Shown here: positions 1,333 to 55,905 of the stretch, piece after piece | How positions within the stretch are numbered: position 1 is the first letter of the stretch | Layout: every line of letters starts with the position of its first letter | Assembly: GCA_030068145.1 (NCBI GenBank) | Contig: JAPJBO010000974.1 | Coordinates: 18,704-82,703 of the forward strand | Origin: Diplonema papillatum | Lineage: Eukaryota > Euglenozoa > Diplonemea > Diplonemida > Diplonemidae | DNA: 64,000 nucleotides | Reading direction: 5' to 3' | The notes under the pieces: model-generated | What the model was told of the DNA's origin: nothing | Databases searched by the model: none | What the model saw: only the letters and a program-made list of their open reading frames with translations | Program-made: the position numbers and the translations under genes

Positions 1333-2254
1333 CGGGTTCAAGGCCCCGCGCAGCGGAAAAAAAATTTTGGGGTGTTTTTGTCCCCCCCCGTGTTTAAGAT
1401 CGTCCCCCCCCGTGTATAAGATCGGTTTTTTTGGGGGGCGATCTTAAACACGGAAAAACGCGATCTTAAACACGGGGGGGGGTAGGTAGCCACAAAAAAC
1501 TTTTTTATTTTAGCTTATAGCCAGGAGGTCCTGAAACTTTTTTTTTAGCTTATAGCCACCTGGTGTGTGGTGGTGAAAACTTGGTCGAAAAGTTTGGTCA
1601 AATTTTTTTGGTCAAAAACACACAAATAACGCTAAAAAATTGGCCCAAAAATTTGGTCAAAAAAAATCGGTCAAAATTTTTGGCCAAAAATGTTGGTCAA
1701 AAAAAATCGGTCAATAAATTGTGGCTATAAGCTAAATAAAAAGTTTCAGGCCCTCCTGGCTATAAGCTAAATAAAAAGTTTTTTGTGGCTATAAGCTAAA
1801 TAAAAAGTTTCTTGGTGGCTATAAGCTAATTATCCCTTTATTTTTTGATCCGCGTCCCCCGACCCCTGAAAATCTTCCGCGCGCGCGCGCAAAAAAAAAA
1901 AAAAAAAATAGTTTTTTTCCTTGGAACGCTTGGCTGACTGAAGAGTTCGCGAACCTGCCACGGTTGCTGAATCAACTCAAGCCGTTCCTCGGGTTCTCGA
2001 TTGCCAGACGCAAAGCCGGAAAACAGCGTATCGACGAACCCGAGTACGCAGGAAAACACAAACCGACGAACTTCATCCCTCTAGACCTAGCCAGCGAACC
2101 GTCTTCCCGCAACTCGCAGCCCTTGCAACCGCCTAGACCGCTTACAGTCGCCGAACGAGTTACAAGCATCGTCGCTCCAATCACCGTCGCCGCAGCAATC
2201 GCCGCCTTCGCCGCCAACAGAGTAACTACCAGAACAAGGAACCCCAAGACCACG

Positions 2255-3616
2255 ATGCGGCAAACCCTGTCAGCTGTAAATACATGCTATTTACAAGCGG
2301 TACTTAACGTGATCTCGGCCACCAACCTCGCCGAACAGATATCGAAATACGTCACATGTGCAGCACACAGAACAGGGGAATGCACTTTGGCTGCGTACGA
2401 CTGGACACAGCGGATAAGAACACCGGACACCGTCGTTAGACTGCACCAGAACCTGAAACATCCCTTCGAAGCGGGCCAACAACACGACTTTGAGGAAGCA
2501 ATGAGGGTGGTACTCGCGTCAATCGTAGACGAAAACGCAGAACACACATGCTGTCAACCAGGCGAGTCTGACAACTTCGACGCCATACGACACTGGTACT
2601 CGACGACAACGCGTTGTGCCAAATGCAAGCACAACAACACGAACGGTCACTGGAACGACATGGCTGTCATCGCCCCTGTTGCAAGCACGGTACAAGGATG
2701 CCTGGACTTCCACTGTGCCCCACACAAACCGGACACGTACAGATGCGAGTGCGGAACCTCCAATAAGACGACCATGCAACACGGCATCAGCAGGATACAA
2801 GGAAGCCTCGTTCTACGCATAACACGTAATCAGCACACAAGGGAGAATCGCCAAGCGGTTGCAGCTGACCAAACGCTGCTGGTGCCTAACCAGGCACAAC
2901 CGCTGAAGCTCAGAGCAGTTGTTGCCCACGCAGGACGAGACAACGCAGGACACTACACTGTACACGTGTTAAACGATACCCCATACAATGACGCAAGATG
3001 GACACACTTCGACAACGCCAACGTCACGCATTCAGCCAATCGCGGCTACACCGACCAGAGTACGAATGTACTCTTCTATACGTTTGACCCAACAGAACCT
3101 GTACACGAACCGGTTCCCTGCCACCTCGACGACGACGCAATGACAAACTCAACACCGCACGCCGCACTTCAGGCCCCAACGCGCACGGGGAACGAAACCG
3201 CACAACGCAGCTCTCAATCCACCACCGACGTCCCATCATCCGACAAGAGCAGCGGCACTGCCACGCCAACCCAACAAATTCTCGAAGAAATGCGTGGCCT
3301 AGAGCCTACTCCGGGCCACACGCCCGACACGGAGGCACTCCAATGTCCGAACTGCCACACACGAACGACGAAAACTGGCACTGCAATAAAAGGCATTCAC
3401 GGCCTGAGCATCCACCTGCGTTTTTGCAAGAAGAAACTACGACGCACACCACCACGCCACAGCACCACGCCTGCAAGCTCAGCAGGCAAAAGGGAGATTT
3501 GCCCGTACTGTCACAGCGACGGACAGACACCGAACAAACCACAATTTACAAGCCTACGACACCACAAACCGTGGTGCAAAACTAAACACCGCAAACCAGG
3601 AGCTACGACCAGATAA
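2255..3616 (+). CDS. USP-family deubiquitinase-like protein with two C2HC zinc fingers
   Basis: This predicted cysteine peptidase of family C19 would remove ubiquitin or ubiquitin-like proteins. Numbering from the first ATG (2255; 453 aa): Cys box NTCYLQAVL with Cys11, a QDxxEF-like box near residue 79 (QHDFEEAM), zinc-finger cysteines CAKC (121-124) and CEC (164-166), and the His box GHYTVHV with His233. This is followed by WTHFDNANV, where Asn254 stands at the usual Asp/Asn position, and a terminal VLFYTF. The C-terminal tail carries two fingers of the form CPxCH...H-x3-C, a type common in DNA-binding parts of transposon proteins. The frame is open upstream to the TIR without a better ATG (about 97 extra codons, including an Ala/Val-rich hydrophobic stretch), so the start or an upstream exon is uncertain. 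It is the only intact gene in the 1841-6022 element. Family assignment is from motif order, not a search. Confidence 0.72.
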   Translation: MRQTLSAVNTCYLQAVLNVISATNLAEQISKYVTCAAHRTGECTLAAYDWTQRIRTPDTVVRLHQNLKHPFEAGQQHDFEEAMRVVLASIVDENAEHTCCQPGESDNFDAIRHWYSTTTRCAKCKHNNTNGHWNDMAVIAPVASTVQGCLDFHCAPHKPDTYRCECGTSNKTTMQHGISRIQGSLVLRITRNQHTRENRQAVAADQTLLVPNQAQPLKLRAVVAHAGRDNAGHYTVHVLNDTPYNDARWTHFDNANVTHSANRGYTDQSTNVLFYTFDPTEPVHEPVPCHLDDDAMTNSTPHAALQAPTRTGNETAQRSSQSTTDVPSSDKSSGTATPTQQILEEMRGLEPTPGHTPDTEALQCPNCHTRTTKTGTAIKGIHGLSIHLRFCKKKLRRTPPRHSTTPASSAGKREICPYCHSDGQTPNKPQFTSLRHHKPWCKTKHRKPGATTR

Positions 3617-3940
3617 CCAGCCACGATGCCAGAGTGCATTCAGAGTACCTTAACTGCGGAGGACAACAAGCAGTCGCCACTTACGCAAAAAGAAATATTT
3701 TTTTTTTAGCCCTTCACCTTCTCTTTCTACTACCCGACCCTCCCACCGCACGTCCTCCTCAACCCAAAGGAAGTAAGAACGCATATTACAGACCGATACG
3801 AGCTGCATGGCAACCCCTGCTCAACATGCATGCGCGTGGGGGGCCCAAGACTAAATTCAAAGCGAATTTCTTCTTGGTGTCGGTCGCAACACTTACAAAC
3901 ATGGCTAGCCGTATTTAAGCATACCTACTACCCACATACC

Positions 3941-4018
3941 ACCCGCCTCACAGCCTCAATGGTCAACCGGAGACCCTAAAACACCGAACCTCTAAACCAC
4001 AATAAACGCTAAAAAATA
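3941..4018. repeat. Short repeat downstream of the USP gene
   Basis: GGTCAACCGGAGACCCTAAA followed by an ACCGAACCTCTAAAC block and AATAAACGCTAAA recurs nearly unchanged at 28205-28282; part recurs at 28507-28530. It may be the 3' UTR or terminator of the element's transcript. Between the USP stop and here (3617-3940) there is only a T-run and no gene. Confidence 0.65.
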
Positions 4019-4171
4019 GTTTGGCAAGTCACCTGGCCTGTGGGTTCCTGTGGGGAGGGGGTGGTCTTGATGGCAAGCGGTCGGGGGGTGGGGGCCCGGA
4101 GGGGTACGCGTCCCTCACTTTGATTCTTCGGCGACTTTTTGCACTGGGAAATGCCCGTCGTCTGCATGTGC

Positions 4172-5660
4172 TCAGGCTTTTTGTTGTACGGAGGGACCAG
4201 GTGAGCCTTCAGCGTAGAGCTGCTGCCACCGACAGTAGTAGGCGTCTAGTCGTGGGCCTTGCGACTGCCTGGGAGCAACCGTGTTGTTCGGCGTACTCGG
4301 CCAGAATTGGTATCGTACCCACGTTTCGGACGGGACGTGGGCATCGGCCGGAAGCCGCTTCTGCACTTCTTCCATGAGAAGCCGGATGCTTGCGGGGACC
4401 TCAAACGTGAGGCGTGAAACTTCTCCATGACGCCTCTCGTCCACGACAGTACCGCACTTCTCAAGAACGCGGCCCATGGCGTCCCAGTAGCCGTCGTATT
4501 TGGACTGTTTTGACGAGCTTCGGAATGAAACCTCACTGGGGTGAATCAGTTGTGAGGAGTTCAGCCAGGTGGCTTTCGGTTGATGTGCGCAGGGGGTTCA
4601 CATCTCCAGTCACGAACATGTAGTACATCGTCTTGAGGATGGTACGCGGAACACCCCAGACCTCGACGAATTTCATCCTCATGGCCCGGGTGTGGAACCT
4701 TTTCCCCGTCCCGATGCACGACTTGAACGCCTTGACGACATCCTCCTGTAGGCGGCGGTCGCTCGGTGGCAGCTTGAATACCAAGCGCTTGCCCCCCAGC
4801 GTTGTATTTGTGGACACCGAAGGGGAAGCTCGTCTTTACCCCTTGGATCTGCTTGAACCGAGCACGGCGATCGTCAGAGAGGCTGGGCACGGTGTCCAGT
4901 GAAAACGGCTCGAATTGCCTCGGCGAATTGCCCTTCCAGCTCTCCCCAAGAAGAAGACCCCTCCGCTTTCACGATGGACCCCAGTCGCAAACAGGGTTTC
5001 TGGATGGAACTCCCGCACTGCGTTGCTCAGTGCGCTGTTGGTTTTGCGCTTGCTGCGTGACGATACGGGTACACACCACATCTCTCACTTCCTGCAGTTT
5101 CGTGCAGTGGATGCTGAGTTCACCTTGTTGTGGTGCCCTCATACTACTGCAACAGCTGCACAGAAAGTGGGAGCCCATCAAGTTTGAGAAGGGTCTTGGC
5201 CACTTCCTGATAGAACGGATGCCCTTTTTCATCGACCAGGAGGGCCCTGTCGAATTCTTCCTGGACTAGCCTGTTGAACAACACTATCCACGACTTCGTT
5301 TCACCCACTTGCAGCGGCTTCACGCGGGCTTGGCTCTTTTTCATCAGCAGGTCGAAGGCGTTGACAGGTGTTCGAGCTACGGGAACTTTTGCTTCACAAC
5401 GTACCGAACCTCCCGGTACTGCATGGAGTCCATGGCCTGCACAGACAAGCCCCAAGAGAAACATCTCTCCACACACTCCTGCTATCAGCCCTAGCCGACA
5501 CCACCACATCATCATCATACTCGGCAGGCGTCCGGAGGTGACGGTCTTTTATGATCTGCTGAAACATCTCCATGAAGGACAACGACAGGTCGTTGATCTC
5601 AAGGAGGTGTCGACCCTTCACTGCACCAATCTCAACATCGATGGCGCAAAAACACGGCAG
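4172..5660 (-). pseudogene. Decayed second gene of the USP-bearing element
   Basis: The - strand holds successive open stretches in shifting frames. One, at 4533-4817, is charged and protein-like (GGKRLVFKLPPSDRRLQ, VEVWGVPRTILKTMYYMF). Another, at 4172-4477, contains VVDERRHGEVSRLTFEVP and WVRYQFWPSTPNN. A third, near 4880-5080, shares SNAVREFHPETLFATG with 54838-55262. Two frames through 4850-5000 both read plausibly, so the joins are unclear. It may be the element's transposase, but I see no certain catalytic motif and do not recognise the family. The repeated occurrence in a second TIR element supports a real former gene. Confidence 0.5.
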
Positions 5661-6030
5661 TGTCCCTTCCCTTTGCTTGTGCCCTGTTTTTGCATTAGCA
5701 TGCAACACTCACTTAGTCAAGGTGAAATTTGCCGGCGTCACAGCTTTCGTGGTGCTGCAGCAACAGATAGGTCAGGGGGTCAAAACAAATCAGAGATTCA
5801 CAGTGAGCTTCTAATCCGGCGTTCCGCTGACGTGTTGGCCCCACGAGCGGGGGTTGGTGTTTCCGCAGCCGAAGCGCGGACTTCAGTGACCATCTGGAGT
5901 CCCCCCGTGGCACCCTGTTGTGCCCTTCCCACAGCAAAAAAGAAAAAATATTTTTTTTTTCAACTATTTTTTTTTCCACGGTTTCCCAAAATTTTCCGCG
6001 CGCTAGGACGCGGATCAAAAAAAAAAAAAG

Positions 6031-6127
6031 ATAACGCTAACCCAAGCAACTTCCGCCGGCAGAGAAACCTTGCCTAAAGAAACCAACTGCCTTCGGGTAG
6101 GCTAGTCTGACACGAGTTGTCGTCGGG
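6031..6127 (+). ncRNA. Small structured repeat with UUCG hairpin, copy 1
   Basis: About 97 bp begins ATAACGCTAACCC, ends GTCGTCGGG, and is framed by A-runs. It has a near-identical copy at 40531-40625 and diverged relatives at 18515-18605 and perhaps 21262-21345. It contains CTGCC-TTCG-GGTAG, a 5-bp stem closed by a UUCG tetraloop; the 18.5-kb relative keeps the stem with different bases (CCGCC-TTCG-GGTGG). The function is unknown; a tRNA, SINE head or ribozyme are all possible. Confidence 0.5.
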
Positions 6128-6308
6128 AAAAAAAAAAAAAAAAAATAGTCTGCCCTTACCGATAAATAATTTTCTGTTACCGATAAGTAATTTCTGTTAC
6201 CGATACATAATTTCCTGTTACAAGGTCGCAGAAGCACTTTGACGCCCAAGACACACTTCCTAAACAGGAAGACACGAAGAAACAGTGTAGCAAAAGAAGA
6301 TCGCGAAC

Positions 6309-6992
6309 ATGGAAAGGCAACAAGACGCAATTGGAGGAAACCCCTTCCAGCACCACCAGCACCAGCACCAGCAGAACCAGCAGAACCAGCAGCACCTGCA
6401 GCACTAGCAGCATTTTCCGAACCACCCGCAACAGCAGCTGTACCATCCGGGACAGTTTCAACACCAGCCTTACCCGCAGCAGCAGCATTTTCAGCACCAC
6501 CCGCATCAAAATCAGCAGTACCTTGCGCACCCGCAGCAGCACCCGCAGCAGTTTCAGCACCTGCAGCAAATTCCACACCAGCAATTTGCACACCAGCAGC
6601 AGCCTCCGCACCAGCAGCAACACCCACACCAGTATCACCAGCACAACCCGTACTCCTACCCGATGCTCTATCAGGGTTACTGCAACCCGGAGCCCTACTA
6701 CGCCCCCAGACACGTGCAGGTGCAAGCGCTGCACCAGGACGCACCGCAAGCACAAGGAGGAGCCCCACAAGCAGTCCCGGTGCAAGCACTGCACCAGGAG
6801 GCACCGCAGGCACAAGGAGGAGCCCCACAAGCAGGAGCCCCACCGGTGCCAGCGCAGCATCAGGATGCACTGCGCGCCAGGTGGTGCCCCCCCAGCTGCA
6901 GCGCTGCAGGACGTAGCAGCGGACCCGGAAGCCGAACCGATGGGCGGAAGAGATCTTCGGCACCTGGGATGAATGCAGGGAGACTCTTCTGA
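6309..6992 (+). pseudogene. Gln/His-rich ORF with one in-frame amber codon
   Basis: From ATG 6309 the frame encodes a strongly Q/H/P-biased protein with repeated QQ, HQ and HPHQ, then an ALHQDAPQAQGGAPQ-type repeat near the 3' end. A single TAG at 6405-6407 interrupts it where CAG (Gln) would fit, a one-base difference. The opposite strand and other frames are also open here because of the repetitive CAG-like composition, so composition alone could create this ORF. It lies inside the arrays at 6155 and 7500 and could be the cargo of that element. I do not recognise a family. Confidence 0.35.
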
Positions 6993-28129: not shown

Positions 28130-28282
28130 TGCACCCCAGCAAGACTTCGCGACGGAGTAACAAGTTCACTCGTCACAAACAATGCCTCCCTCTTCTCCAA
28201 ACAATACCGCCCGGCTCCCAGCCTCAACGGTCAACCGGAGACCCTAAAACACCGAACCTCTAAACGACAATAAACGCTAAAC
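28130..28282 (+). pseudogene. Fragment of a second USP-element copy (gene 3' end)
   Basis: Bases 28205-28282 are the same 3' repeat found 0.3 kb after the USP gene. Just upstream a short frame reads KFTRHKQC, comparable with the spacing of the USP gene's last zinc finger (FTSLRHHKPWC). This suggests the tail of a related element, otherwise lost. Confidence 0.4.
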
Positions 28283-36892: not shown

Positions 36893-39800
36893 CCACGGTG
36901 AACGAGTCAGTGACAAGCAACCCCAACAACTGCTTATCAGCCGCATCAGTCAATCCCTCCCTTTCCATACCTCCCGAATCATCAGTCGTTTCCTCCCAAA
37001 CACACCCGATATCAGCTTCAACCAACTCCTTCCGACCGCAAGAAGCGCACCCGCCGCTAGTCATTCCGCCCCTGAGAGCCCGCCGTTTCCTCCCTCTCGA
37101 CAGGCACTTGATCCTCCTGTCGTGTAATGCCTCCTGTAAGATGTGTTTAGAGAGATTTTTCTCACGCTTGCCGGCTGCCGATGTCCTGGCGGTGAACGAG
37201 ATTGGCCGCGAGCCCACGATCTTCCGCGAATACGCAACCCGTGCCGGATGGACTGTCGTGGTGGTGGGCACTTGCCCCTACGCGGACGGGCACCCCCTGG
37301 CCCGGACGGCGATACTGATCAAGAAGCAATCCCTGATTACAGTATCTCAGTGCTACACCGGTTACGGTGCGTGCAGCGCAGACCTGCAGGTGGCGGGCGA
37401 GACACTAAGGGTAGTGAGTGTGTACGTCCCTTGCCACAAACGCGATTCCCTGACCGACCGACTCGGAGACTGGATAGCGCAGCGGGCGCGGGACTGCATG
37501 ACCGACTTCGCGGTTGTCGGCGACTTTAACCCACGAACTACGCCCCAGGTGGAGCGCCGCATGCGGAGGGAGAATCTGCAGGAATTGGTGCGGTCGCGAA
37601 CAACTTTTTCGAGGTCGAACGCCACGTCGTCGCTGGACAGAGCTTTCGTGCCGAGAAGGTCTCGATGGAGCTTGAGCAGCATTCGATTCACCGGAGGAAG
37701 CGACCATGCTGTTCTGTCCCTACGCTTCGACAAGAGCCTGAAGAGGCCTCCGGCCATGGTGTACCCCACAAAGCGCCAAACCCTCGACCAAGCGACCTTT
37801 TCCCAGATGCTCGACGCCCTCGATGAAACGGGTGCTCGCCCACCCCCTCGACCCAGAAGCACGAAGGTGGCGAGGCTGCAGGATGCCCTATATCGTCGAA
37901 TTATACTCCGAAGCAGCGCCGGCGCACAACTGAAGTCGACCCTAAATGCAGAGATTCGGTCGATCCGAAAGAAATTGGACGCGGCCGGGCAACACCACAA
38001 GTCTCCAAACCTGTCATCACCTTATCAGCCACCGATGCTGGAGAATCCCGCCGTCTTTACGGCGTTCCTCCGGAACAAATACCAATCTGACGCCCTACAC
38101 CCACCGATAATCCTGCCCCGCGACGCCGTACCGATTGCGTTGTCGGCCGAAGACGTCAGCGCGGCGATAGCTGTCATCCGGTCCACTGCTCGAACAGCTG
38201 ACTTCTCACCGAAGTTTTTAAAAACAATGTCAGAGAGAACTCTTGAGTCAACGACAGCTGAGCTCAACAGATGGACTCGTGAGGGCGTACCGGCGCGACA
38301 GCGAGTGTCTTGGATTTTCTTATTCTGGAAGGGGAAGGCGATGCGAACGTCGGATCCGAGGGGGTACCGGCCAATTGCAATAATGCCTCTCTTTGCAAAA
38401 CTGCAGCACTCGGCATTGTATCTGAAAATGAAACCGTTGGTACAGTCATTGGTCCAGATGCACGAGTTCCAGTTCGGATGCGGTAGGCAAAGCGGGGCGG
38501 CGCAGGTGGTCCTCCATGCACGGGAGTGGCTGGAAACAGAGATGGGTTCTGAGGAAGACGACGAGCGCTTGCTGCTCCTGGTAGACGTCCGGGCCGCCTT
38601 CGACTCGATTCCGCACGGAAGGCTGATACAGACAGTAGAGAGGCTGCTTGGCCCCGAATGGGCGAAGACAGTAGCAAGGGTAATCGAGGGCCAGGAGGTG
38701 ACGATTGTTCACTACGACGGGTTTACCCCGCCGGTCGGCTTGGGGCGAGGCGTACTCCAAGGCTCACCCCTCAGCGTACTCCTCTTCGTACTGTACACCT
38801 GCGAGCCCCCCCCGAGGGAAGATACCCGGGCGTACGTCGATGATCTGGTGGCCCGAACAACAAGGTCACGCCTCCCAGCTACTTTTGGGGCGCTCCAATC
38901 GTGGTCGGCGTCGAAAGGGTTGGAGCTGGCTGAAGACAAGATCCTTGTATTGGCGAAGACTCCCTTCGTGTGGAGCACTGAACCTCACCGCGAGACCGTG
39001 AACCGCGCAAAACTGCTGGGTGCCTGCCTGCACGCGGACAGACGAACGAGAGGGTGCGAGAATGACGCGAAGAACTTGGAAAGGCTGGCACGCCTGGTAG
39101 ACTTCACCAACTCCCACGTCTACCGCTCGACAAGACGTAAGTGTGCCTTCTTCCGCAGCCACGTACTGCCCACCCTGTCCATGCACTGCCTATCCTCCTG
39201 CTTCGACCCAAGAGCACCCAAGCTGGTAGCTTCTCACGCAAGTCTCTTCCCGAAGCATCGCCACAGTAGAGGGATTAAGGAATTTGCATGGTGCAAGGAC
39301 GGCTTCGCGTGCCCGAACGTGGAACATTACGCGGCACTTCAACGAACGCGGGCGTACCTGGCTCACCGACCCAACGAAGAAAGGGACGCCCTCCCTGTAG
39401 CAGGCTTCCGTCGAAGGCCCCCCCGACAAACAGCCGTGGGAGAGGACATACTCTCGCAGATCGACGTGATGCTGGGCCGGGAATTCTTGTTGACGCATGA
39501 TGTTGTGGTGGCGAGCGATGGGGGTTTTCTCGAGGACGAATCGCGCGGGTCCGCCGGAGTCAATTTCGGAACGATGTCCTTCGGCTGCCTGCTAAGCGGA
39601 ACCGTGACCTCGAGCACAGAGACCGAACTGGCGGCAATGATGCTGTTGGCAACCGTGCTGAGACGGTGGGATGTCGCCCCCGAGAGGGTTTCGTGGTACA
39701 GCGACAGCGAAGCGGCCATCCTGCGAATCCGCCGAAAGGAGCCCGGTGACCCCGTGGCAGGCGTGGTCGGCGAGTATGAGCAGTGCCTCCGATGGGGTAA

Positions 39801-40398
39801 GGGACACGCCGACAACACCGACATCAACGGCGCAGATGAGGCGGCGACGCGGGCCCTCCAGGAGAGACTTCCGGTTCTGGACGTTGAGCTCCTGTATCGG
39901 AAGAACGGGGTAAGAGCTGTTTGCTGTTACGCCGCAGAGGACTTCCCGCAGCTGGAGAGCCCCATTCGGTACGTGAAGCGCGTGTGGCAGTACAGCCGGA
40001 CAAAGACGGCGACGAGGAGCATACGGGAACTTGCGTCGGCGGAGACAACGAAGGGGAGTACGCTCCGCTCCCTCGAAGCACTGCCCGGCGCCGTGGACCT
40101 CTTGCAAGCGATTATCCGGCGAGCGGTGATGCCGCGAGCCACCCGGATCGCCTGCAAGCGGTGCGCGGCGCTGGCCAACGCGCAACACGTCCTGCTCGCA
40201 GATGATGCGACGCACAACGAAGTGTCCGACATCCGTCACGCATACCCCACCGACCCGCCACAACTGAAGGGACTGCTCGCGGACTTTGCAAAGAAACGAA
40301 GAGACACGATCCGGCACGTGGCGAAACGCGTGAAGGTCCTGTGCGACGACCCGTTAGCGGCACGGTGGTCCTCGCTAGTTTTGAGATATCTCGAGTAA
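36865..40398 (+). CDS. LINE ORF2: endonuclease - reverse transcriptase - RNase H
   Basis: Numbered from GTG 36898 (1166 codons). APE-type endonuclease at about 60-285, with NEIGREP near 100, VVGDFN at 205-210 and GSDHAVLSL near 267. RT at about 410-700: PRGYRPIAIM, VDVRAAFDS, GVLQGSPLS and YVDD at 646-649. RNase H at about 865-985 with catalytic D874 (ASDGG), E910 (STETELA), D939 (YSDSEA) and D980 (GADEAA). A CxxC...H remnant near 1083 is a degraded zinc finger. All catalytic residues are intact. There is no in-frame ATG before 37141, which lies inside the endonuclease; the frame opens at 36865, overlapping ORF1 by 28 bases, so translation would need frameshifting, reinitiation or a non-AUG start. 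Confidence 0.9.
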   Translation, partial: GRPRGRLILATVNESVTSNPNNCLSAASVNPSLSIPPESSVVSSQTHPISASTNSFRPQEAHPPLVIPPLRARRFLPLDRHLILLSCNASCKMCLERFFSRLPAADVLAVNEIGREPTIFREYATRAGWTVVVVGTCPYADGHPLARTAILIKKQSLITVSQCYTGYGACSADLQVAGETLRVVSVYVPCHKRDSLTDRLGDWIAQRARDCMTDFAVVGDFNPRTTPQVERRMRRENLQELVRSRTTFSRSNATSSLDRAFVPRRSRWSLSSIRFTGGSDHAVLSLRFDKSLKRPPAMVYPTKRQTLDQATFSQMLDALDETGARPPPRPRSTKVARLQDALYRRIILRSSAGAQLKSTLNAEIRSIRKKLDAAGQHHKSPNLSSPYQPPMLENPAVFTAFLRNKYQSDALHPPIILPRDAVPIALSAEDVSAAIAVIRSTARTADFSPKFLKTMSERTLESTTAELNRWTREGVPARQRVSWIFLFWKGKAMRTSDPRGYRPIAIMPLFAKLQHSALYLKMKPLVQSLVQMHEFQFGCGRQSGAAQVVLHAREWLETEMGSEEDDERLLLLVDVRAAFDSIPHGRLIQTVERLLGPEWAKTVARVIEGQEVTIVHYDGFTPPVGLGRGVLQGSPLSVLLFVLYTCEPPPREDTRAYVDDLVARTTRSRLPATFGALQSWSASKGLELAEDKILVLAKTPFVWSTEPHRETVNRAKLLGACLHADRRTRGCENDAKNLERLARLVDFTNSHVYRSTRRKCAFFRSHVLPTLSMHCLSSCFDPRAPKLVASHASLFPKHRHSRGIKEFAWCKDGFACPNVEHYAALQRTRAYLAHRPNEERDALPVAGFRRRPPRQTAVGEDILSQIDVMLGREFLLTHDVVVASDGGFLEDESRGSAGVNFGTMSFGCLLSGTVTSSTETELAAMMLLATVLRRWDVAPERVSWYSDSEAAILRIRRKEPGDPVAGVVGEYEQCLRWGKGHADNTDINGADEAATRALQERLPVLDVELLYRKNGVRAVCCYAAEDFPQLESPIRYVKRVWQYSRTKTATRSIRELASAETTKGSTLRSLEALPGAVDLLQAIIRRAVMPRATRIACKRCAALANAQHVLLADDATHNEVSDIRHAYPTDPPQLKGLLADFAKKRRDTIRHVAKRVKVLCDDPLAARWSSLVLRYLE

Positions 40399-53918: not shown

Positions 53919-55905
53919 GTGATTGCTTGTTATAACAAGTGTTTGGTTGCAATTTCATGAGGAACCTGGGGTTTGTACCTACCTACGAGAGAAAGTCACG
54001 TGATCTGCAAGACACTAGGCTTTTGGCAAACAAACGGTTGCTGTATGCACGCTTGGCATTTGCACACCCGAACCGCTCATTCGGGGTTCTTCTGTGGGTC
54101 GAAGTTTCTTGTCATGTGAAAACCCCCGGGCCGAGGTACCACCACGGCCCAGCCAAACGAGCGTGATTTCGTGTTTTTTGACATTTTCGCCCAAGGCGGT
54201 GACCGTACTCCAGGTATTACACATCACCTCCACTGTGGCATGACACCGAATTTACGGCCAAAAAGCTGCGGAACTGCGTATTTGATGCAACAAAGCCAAA
54301 AAAGGAGGGTTTTCGGCCTGTTAACGAACGTTAACAAAATCAGGGGGCTTTGCCTATTTCGGGGAGCGAGATTGACTGTTACCGTTACGCCTTCCTGAAG
54401 CCCGAGACTGCCAGAAAATTACCCCTACTGGCAGCACACAACATCTGGCGGGCAGAAAAGCACTCAGGGGACCATAATATCCCCCCCAGATGCTCCAGAA
54501 AAGTCCAAGGTCCGTACACTCAGGGTGGTGCACCCAAGAAAGCTGCCATGTTCTAGCAAGAATATTTCCTTGTCGACTTGTTGGAGCACACAGAGAACGA
54601 CATCCAGGGTGGTTACGACCCCAGAACACACCCTCGGATCACAAGACTGGGACACTGGACTCAGAATAGTGTTGAAAACCATCCTATGCCTTCTCAATCA
54701 AGCTGGTCCCGGGTGCGTAACGGTAGCGTAACGGTAGTGTAACGGTAGCGGTAGTGTAACAGCATGCTCAGGTTTTCGGTACCAGGGGTAACCAAAATCC
54801 GCAAGATTACACCAGAACTGCACCTAAAATTGACTGCGTGCAGTCAGAGTACTGCAAGAGTCCGGATGTCAGCCAGCAAAGCGGCACAGAGAAAAGCCGA
54901 AGAATGGTGGCCATCGTGAGCAGCTGCAGCAGGCCAGCACCACCGCACAAATTCGAGGGATGGGCTGAAAAACTGCGTAGCCGAGAGCGGGCGGAACTGA
55001 GCAACGCAGTGCGGGAGTTCCATCCAGAAACCCTGTTTGCGACTGGGAGCAGTCCATCGTGAAAGCGGAGGGGTCTTCTTCTTGGGGAGAGCCGGAAGAG
55101 CAATTCGCCGAGGCAATTCGAGCCGTTTTCACTGGACACCGTGCCCGGCCTCTCTGACGATCGCCGTGCTCGGTTCAAGCAGATCCAAGGGGTAAAGACG
55201 AGCTTCCCCTTCGGTGTCCAAAGTACAACGCTGGGGGGCAAGCGCTTGGTATTCAAGCTGTGATGTCTCGTGCGCACTCTCTCGTCCTTGGTGGTGGCCT
55301 GGGCACGCCACCTCCATGCACTGGGTCTCCGCCGCCCACTAAATTTACCCTCTTCTGCCCTTTCTTGCCGGAGGTGCCGTCTTCGAAGGCGTTCCACCAG
55401 CACGTCCGATCCTTTCCTCCCCATACGTGGAAAATACGTCCATCCCCCAGACCTCATCATTGAAGGCGTGCCTGTTCGTCCCCAACTGCGACTCGAGCAC
55501 GAGCATCGTCTCTGTACCCGCACGACCTCTGGTGGAACGGTTCCTGCTCTCTTTACCGCAGCGGATCCTGTAGCTACCTGTGTCAAAACGTGTCAAACTG
55601 TACCTCCCAGTCTGTCCTTCCTTCTCAGCCTCTATCTTCGTCTTCGGGGCATAACCGAACACGGGACCGCTCTGCGCAAGGTAGGGCCATAATAGCGTAG
55701 CCCCCTCCCCGGCTGCAGGGAAAGTGGTCGTCACAAAGGAAATACCCCGAAACTCCCCGAATTTCCCCGAAACTCCCCGATATTTTTGTCTGGACCAGGT
55801 GGAGCCTTGTGTCTTGCAGATCACTGATTTTCTCTCGTAGGTAGGTGCAAACCCCAGGTTCCTTATGAAATTGCAACCAAACACTTGTTATAACAAGCAA
55901 TCACT
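53919..55905. mobile_element. TIR element with about 102-bp arms
   Basis: Left arm 53919-54020 (AGTGATTGCTTGTTATAACA, GTTTGGTTGCAATTTCATGA, CCTACCTACGAGAGAAA, TGATCTGCAAGACAC) is inverted at 55803-55905 with about 6 mismatches. The interior carries a fragment of the gene also found on the - strand of the USP-bearing element (54838-55262), linking the two elements. Confidence 0.75.
54838..55262 (+). pseudogene. Fragment related to the - strand gene at 4172-5660
   Basis: About 210 bp (55050-55262) match the reverse complement of 4752-4985 closely (AAAGCGGAGGGGTCTTCTTC, GACGATCGCCGTGCTCGG). The upstream part shares AGCAACGCAGTGCGGGAGTT. Homology ends abruptly at 55262. The upstream frame, with KFEGWAEKLRSRERAELSNA, extends the protein beyond what is readable in the other copy. 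Not recognised. Confidence 0.6.

Follow-up and report, generated by a model that had tools for sequence, protein, structure and literature searches.

Penelope-like elements (PLEs) with an N-terminal endonuclease, the Chlamys and Naiad clades, were reportedly the subject of work by Craig et al. in 2021, which is not known to describe a ubiquitin-specific protease (USP) domain. The elements considered here were found through a 64,000-nucleotide stretch of the Diplonema papillatum genome (assembly GCA_030068145.1, contig JAPJBO010000974.1, positions 18,704 to 82,703; hereafter the window). In their N-terminal GIY-YIG domain, a CxC motif ahead of the reverse transcriptase (RT), pseudo-long terminal repeats (pseudo-LTRs) and 5'-truncated and chimeric copies they are like those clades. 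Chlamys elements are not known to have a CCHH motif and, in line with this, one of the longer elements here (L018) has only one Cys near its GIY-YIG domain. What the present elements appear to add is a C-terminal USP domain followed, in the families that we call A, B and C, by two C2HC motifs. The copy in the window is a 5'-truncated one, nested within an unrelated transposon with terminal inverted repeats (TIRs).

Chlamys PLEs have been reported in a stramenopile (Ectocarpus, PMC12477816), and the word ubiquitin is absent from the main text of that report. Canonical Penelope has in common with the present elements an RT and a GIY-YIG domain in one open reading frame (ORF), pseudo-LTRs and A/T-rich targets, but its GIY-YIG is C-terminal, the opposite domain order, and the accessible part of the source mentions no USP (PMC11167929). 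Ubiquitin- or SUMO-cleaving types of protease are known from other mobile elements: Ulp1 or OTU cysteine proteases occur in Ginger1, Mutator and Helentrons, and Ulp1 in the NeSL and Utopia long interspersed nuclear elements (LINEs; PMC2836005, PMC4640811, PMC6431247). There, as here, a mobile-element protein is fused to such a protease, but those carriers are DNA transposons or LINEs, whereas here a member of peptidase family C19, the USPs, is found in what is probably a Penelope-like retroelement. One example of C19 is cited in PMC2836005, a protein of Trichomonas vaginalis in which Transposase_11 and Peptidase C19 occur together; it likewise joins C19 to a mobile-element enzyme, but to a DNA transposase, whereas the fusion here is in a retrotransposon and in at least six families. 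A literature search of titles and abstract openings, with subscription journals mostly outside its coverage, returned no report of a USP in a PLE, and we provisionally regard the USP-bearing architecture as new relative to known PLEs.

A retrotransposon copy nested in a TIR transposon

An earlier note on the window, made from its letters, had read positions 1841–6022 as a single TIR element that had captured or evolved a deubiquitinase. The locus of this ORF is in fact two nested elements: 1919–4015 is a 5'-truncated retrotransposon copy, and only 1838–1918 and 4016–6155 belong to the TIR element. When window positions 1500–6500 were aligned against twenty fetched loci, six copies of family A (L009–L014) matched from 1919 to about 4015–4026 at 99.6–99.8% identity, in addition to short scattered repeat matches. 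Their 3' flanks differ, and all six sit outside the TIR element. Searching from the other side, with positions 4030–6030 of the TIR element as query, gave 91 match rows. Twelve of the matching loci, the window's own included, were fetched. The two window flanks were then joined and aligned to the eleven others. In ten (L030–L034, L036–L040) the alignment crosses the junction without a break and has TIR-side sequence to its left, an empty site, and in the eleventh (L035) the junction is uninterrupted and the left TIR lost. None of the eleven has the USP ORF inside the TIR element; L034 and L037 do have short retrotransposon 3'-end pieces, of 38 and 100 bp respectively, but outside it. Because of the empty sites and the independent family A copies, we conclude that the retrotransposon inserted into an older TIR element. 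No clear target duplication of the retrotransposon can be discerned, as a repeated A/T tract makes up the empty site.

Capture of the USP by the TIR transposon, as a cargo gene of its own, draws on the position of the ORF between exact 17-bp inverted ends (1841–1857 and 6006–6022, TTTTTTGATCCGCGTCC). These ends were correctly noticed and are not a chance match, since the same sequence recurs as a subterminal TIR in other copies. The empty sites and the family A copies lying elsewhere nevertheless refute capture, to which we leave a next to negligible probability, and the reading as a single TIR element whose cargo gene is the USP was rejected on account of the former. The earlier note had itself named USP ORFs outside the TIRs in other genomic copies as the finding that would speak against its proposal, and this is the situation in six out of six other fetched near-identical copies. 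Its suggestion that the USP may stabilise the element's transposase is likewise unsupported, the carrier being apparently a PLE whose RT continues in frame into the USP. What survives is that a mobile element carries a USP-type deubiquitinase domain with zinc-finger-like motifs, apparently conserved. The case cautions that an intact ‘gene’ between inverted repeats may be a nested fragment of another element.

On the + strand, the window ORF matches Pfam UCH (PF00443) with E = 9.8e-17 and 61.8 bits (cut-off 23.9). Its Cys, QHD, CxxC/CxC, GHY and WTHFDN blocks stand in the canonical order, as had been observed before. The ORF limits first given, 2255–3616, are right as to the stop codon, whereas 2255 marks no more than the earliest ATG in a frame that is open from 1775 and takes in the RT C-terminus. 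Both proposed C-terminal C2HC fingers, C-x2-C-x19-H-x3-C and C-x2-C-x17-H-x3-C, are conserved as motifs across families A, B and C, while the Pfam search of the window ORF names no zinc finger above cut-off over them. The copy in the window is thus a defunct remnant of the retrotransposon, and a 3' end related to its own is present in the pseudo-LTRs of family C. Elsewhere in the window, at 28204–28281, lies a second retrotransposon 3'-end fragment of 78 bp, 93.6% identical to positions 3936–4013.

Domain architecture of the longer relatives

A search of the 271-Mb assembly with the window ORF gave 92 match rows. Family A accounts for 40 of them, at 91–100% identity, and families B and C for 51, at 41–46%; a single row stands at 56%. 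The open frames that surround the rows are up to 2762 aa long (family B). In these longer relatives, and in the families D and E introduced below, the ‘USP ORF’ is the C-terminal part of a single ORF that also holds a Penelope-type RT. The single 2209-aa frame of L018 (family C) contains a long low-complexity region, GIY-YIG, the CxC motif (CACHRY), RT, UCH and the two C2HC motifs, in that order (Table 1). Family B has the identical order within 2012 aa in L022, where UCH scores 1.1e-11 and the CxC motif reads CACRHY. In families B–E a GIY-YIG domain lies N-terminal to the RT in the same frame: the isolated L018 piece is above the cut-off of Pfam PF01541 (1.2e-7), as are matches within frames of 1562 aa (D) and 1585 aa (E). 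The RT carries the motifs LYGxxKLHK, GIPMGxNAS (also as GIPMGGNAS) and RFIDD, the family E piece beginning past the first of them. Against PF00443 the five families score 9.8e-17 (A), 1.9e-13 (B), 5.7e-14 (C), 2.8e-24 (D) and 2.1e-22 (E), and all have the catalytic motifs N[ST]C[YF], GH[YF] and W-x2-[FY][DN] in order, the last residue being Asn in family C. NCBIfam profiles gave nothing above cut-off.

Two other readings of these frames were rejected. The USP is not a separate ORF, as the open frames run through RT and USP; nor has L027 lost its UCH domain, which is missed by Pfam in the long ORF and scores 6.4e-13 when isolated. In four copies of family B (L020, L021, L023, L024) the 5' half of the long ORF, ahead of the conserved domains, contains direct repeats with an offset of about 190 nt (about 64 aa).

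Relationship to Penelope-like elements

Provisionally, we assign the elements to the PLEs of the N-terminal-endonuclease kind, on the grounds of motifs, domain order and pseudo-LTRs. The motifs LYGxxKLHK, GIPMGGNAS and RFIDD we take to be those familiar from Penelope-like elements, and a CxC motif, here found between endonuclease and RT in L018 and L022, is said to serve as a criterion for N-terminal-endonuclease PLEs in the 2021 work of Craig et al. Pseudo-LTRs are seen in family C at 1–559 and 8938–9505 of L017 (97% identity) and at 426–956 and 9372–9901 of L018 (99%). At 3278–3358 of L010, in the reverse-complemented reading, a family C 3' end is joined directly to family A interior, a chimera as expected of template jumping or partial tandems. 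In a further comparison with canonical Penelope, four loci (L013, L017, L018, L022) gave no Rfam family, and no hammerhead ribozyme, at gathering threshold; N-terminal-endonuclease PLEs are not known to have a canonical hammerhead ribozyme either. A viral_contigs scan returned 40 stretches that fit a pattern, none of them confirmed.

Spread of the RT–USP fusion

A genome search with PF00443, in which 149 matches were scored of 935 candidates, brought up host-like USPs and two more high-copy groups, D and E, among the matches listed. There was no match to the light-harvesting profile PF00504, which suggests that the host is no photosynthetic alga. In L041 (D) and L042 (E) the RT is followed in frame by a USP of more canonical sequence (GLPNLGNTCF, QHDAHE, GHF/GHY, FDD), and L046 is a further D-type USP. 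Between A–C and D/E, RT identity is around 36–39%; USP identity between A and D is 24%. An RT search with a D query gave 92 rows, all of which were compared with the part of the D/E-like USP rows listed, and 85 have a same-strand USP 334–628 nt downstream, one C23 copy accounting for two rows. Likewise, 36 D/E-type rows of 150 GIY-YIG rows were tested for a downstream RT, which was found at 1088–1174 nt in 33. A group G with 1590-aa frames, known by position only, combines an RT 78% identical to that of D with a USP 79% identical to that of E on the same contigs, and at least 143 rows across C, A and B were matched by a family C USP query. RT and USP are thus carried together by at least six families, A, B, C, D, E and G.

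Further GIY-YIG frames, present in many copies and 1448, 1513, 1457, 1544 and 1417 aa long, are not among the USP matches listed; they lie on C510, C2819, C61 and other contigs, some of them evenly spaced. Those of 1448 and 1513 aa, known from the GIY-YIG match alone, form regular arrays of 5726 bp on C510 and 5850 bp on C2819 and C61. Three GIY-YIG matches stronger than those of the retrotransposons (58.6, 46.6 and 44.3 bits), at C121:266697–267430 and C1026:23891–24121, are possibly host nucleases. In the window, a 1166-aa ORF at 36898–40398 (RVT_1, E = 1.6e-13) resembles a LINE-type retrotransposon protein.

Conservation, activity and origin

The USPs of families A–C are 38–43% identical and keep the catalytic Cys, His and Asp/Asn motifs. 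Non-synonymous and synonymous divergence (dN/dS, both estimated by NG86) between two B subfamilies (L022 and L023) is 0.017/0.143 for the USP and 0.006/0.198 for the RT; between D and E, where synonymous sites are near saturation, it is 0.300/2.727 for the USP, 0.142/3.478 for the RT and 0.737/1.244 for the linker. These values bear on the notion that the USP is a functionless passenger, host sequence transduced by the element and read through by chance. PLEs can indeed transduce host DNA (PMC6431247), and USP and linker evolve faster than the RT. However, catalytic motifs are intact in A–C as well as in D and E, dN is below dS, and the fusion is found repeatedly, in at least six families, with near-constant RT–USP spacing in D, E and G, so that a passenger seems highly improbable.

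Four family C ORFs, each intact and 6630 bp long, differ from one another at 4–8 positions. Full-length frames recur, at exactly 2210 aa in 13 of the at least 143 family C query rows, and at 1562, 1585 and 1590 aa (D, E and G) in 13, 14 and 5 of the 92 D-RT rows. Such near-identical intact copies suggest recent activity, and the pattern is that expected of active elements whose USP is in use. Three host USPs and the element USPs match each other weakly. A ten-sequence tree, built from seven element-type USPs and three of the host, leaves A–C, D–F and the hosts as three groups and does not discriminate between one capture and several.

Overall, the best explanation appears to be a truncated PLE copy nested in a TIR transposon, the intact element encoding a GIY-YIG/RT/USP protein whose USP would act in cis; we put its probability at about 0.8. 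Several observations weigh against it. The PLE assignment is drawn from features of the sequence; the RT is below cut-off for Pfam RVT_1, and a PDB search with a five-family RT profile came back empty up to E = 10, which is why we call this RT divergent. The endonuclease is weak in places: the whole ORF of L022 scores 0.0053 for GIY-YIG, below cut-off, and its isolated piece 23.0 bits against a cut-off of 22.6 (9.6e-5), while the whole ORF of L027 is also below. The fetched family A copies do not reach the endonuclease, covering the RT region from residue 1230 of L018 on (the longest A frame, of 1027 aa, starts inside it), and because of this truncation an endonuclease in family A is presumed from B and C. 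Seven of the 92 D-RT rows have no USP among the matches listed. Between A and C the USP is 42% identical compared with 84% for the RT, that is, it evolves faster, and constraint on the finger region is not evident in the B pair, as its dN/dS there is 0.028/0.046. Finally, a single-sequence AlphaFold model made with no alignment has a mean predicted local distance difference test (pLDDT) score of 37.9 and is uninformative on the USP fold.

The host TIR transposon

Other copies of the TIR element read GGGCAGACTATTTTTATTTTTTGATCCGCG at the left end and continue without the insert. The right end in the window is at 6155 (TAGTCTGCCC, then TTA), preceded by an extra stretch of roughly 100 bp at about 6027–6130. 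The termini are GGGCAGACTA and TAGTCTGCCC. Both were found in exact form in four fetched loci (L030, L031, L032, L038), and in each of these a TTA or TAA duplication flanks the element on either side. A 3-bp TWA target-site duplication (TSD) together with TIRs is the mark of PIF/Harbinger elements. Nine minus-strand ORFs of the TIR element gave no Pfam match above cut-off, Harbinger transposase included, so we call it only PIF/Harbinger-‘like’, possibly a decayed or non-autonomous copy. Of the decayed second gene once proposed for the other strand, the region does lie in the TIR element, but no coding identity could be attached to it; the transposon is decayed or non-coding. A fragment of its body, 96.6% identical, lies on the other strand at 54996–55260 of the window, overlapped by a 259-aa ORF (54807–55586).

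Table 1. Coordinates of the nested elements in the window (nucleotides) and of the domains of L018 (residues)
Feature	Position	Strand	Basis
5'-truncated Penelope-like retrotransposon (provisional), family A, in A/T-rich tract of TIR transposon	1919–4015	+	99.6–99.8% identity to L009–L014; empty sites
RT C-terminus codons (PWNAWLTEEFANLPRLLNQLKPFLGF), sole RT remnant, 26 codons	1919–1996	+	aligns with RT end in L013, L018, L022
USP (peptidase C19) domain	2276–3079	+	Pfam UCH, residues 105–372 of 550-aa ORF
Two C2HC zinc-finger-like motifs near C-terminus; stop codon 3614–3616	3344–3577	+	common to A, B, C
Retrotransposon 3' untranslated part, ending CAATAAACGCT(A)	3617–4015	+	identical 3' end in six other copies
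Left end of host TIR transposon (subterminal TIR; terminal GGGCAGACTA altered in window)	1838–1918		other copies
Remainder of host TIR transposon, PIF/Harbinger-like by TSD	4016–6155		91 match rows; TTA/TAA duplications
L018 domains	GIY-YIG 858–947 (E 5.8e-6); RT ~1263–1703; UCH 1796–2065 (E 5.7e-14)		Pfam; RT by motifs

Possible roles of the deubiquitinase

In the mechanism that we envisage, the element protein would bind its own RNA, the GIY-YIG domain would nick A/T-rich DNA, and the RNA would be copied at the nick, often incompletely, leaving 5'-truncated copies like that in the window; nicking and target-primed copying we infer by analogy with in vitro work on an Anolis Penelope element (PMC11167929). 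Tethered in cis, the USP would most likely deubiquitinate the element's own protein, or host proteins bound at the nicked site, and so prevent degradation or clearing of the complex before copying ends, and the fingers at the C-terminus may anchor it to nucleic acid.

Protection of the element's own protein from ubiquitin-dependent removal is our first choice among the possible targets, though held tentatively and at slightly less than even odds. A less likely possibility is that its substrates are chromatin or repair proteins at the target, such as ubiquitinated histones or PCNA, and that the USP serves to open the site or to direct repair. The fusion to RT and endonuclease, with zinc-finger-like motifs behind it in A–C, would suit such a role, and a repair role has been proposed for transposon Ulp1/OTU domains in PMC2836005, but sequence fails to separate this from self-protection. 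The position of the USP within one very long frame (1562–2762 aa in intact relatives) recalls polyprotein proteases and might suggest that it cuts the product of the long ORF. Known C19 enzymes, however, cleave after the C-terminal glycine of ubiquitin, and no ubiquitin-like segment was noticed by eye in the printed ORFs, which makes autoprocessing improbable.

Returning to a USP acting in cis on ubiquitinated substrates, it is conceivable, again a little short of even odds, that a whole PLE lineage is built on a deubiquitinase, gained before the split of A–E and G, kept by selection and required either for retrotransposition to be efficient or for evading the host's ubiquitin-dependent control. 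The elements would add a domain architecture to those of Penelope-like elements. The role of the Ulp1 and OTU proteases of DNA transposons and LINEs is unsettled, and a retrotransposon lineage with many intact, nearly identical copies, in which RT and endonuclease are linked in cis to a USP, would offer a clean system in which to ask whether ubiquitin removal serves transposition itself or acts against host control.

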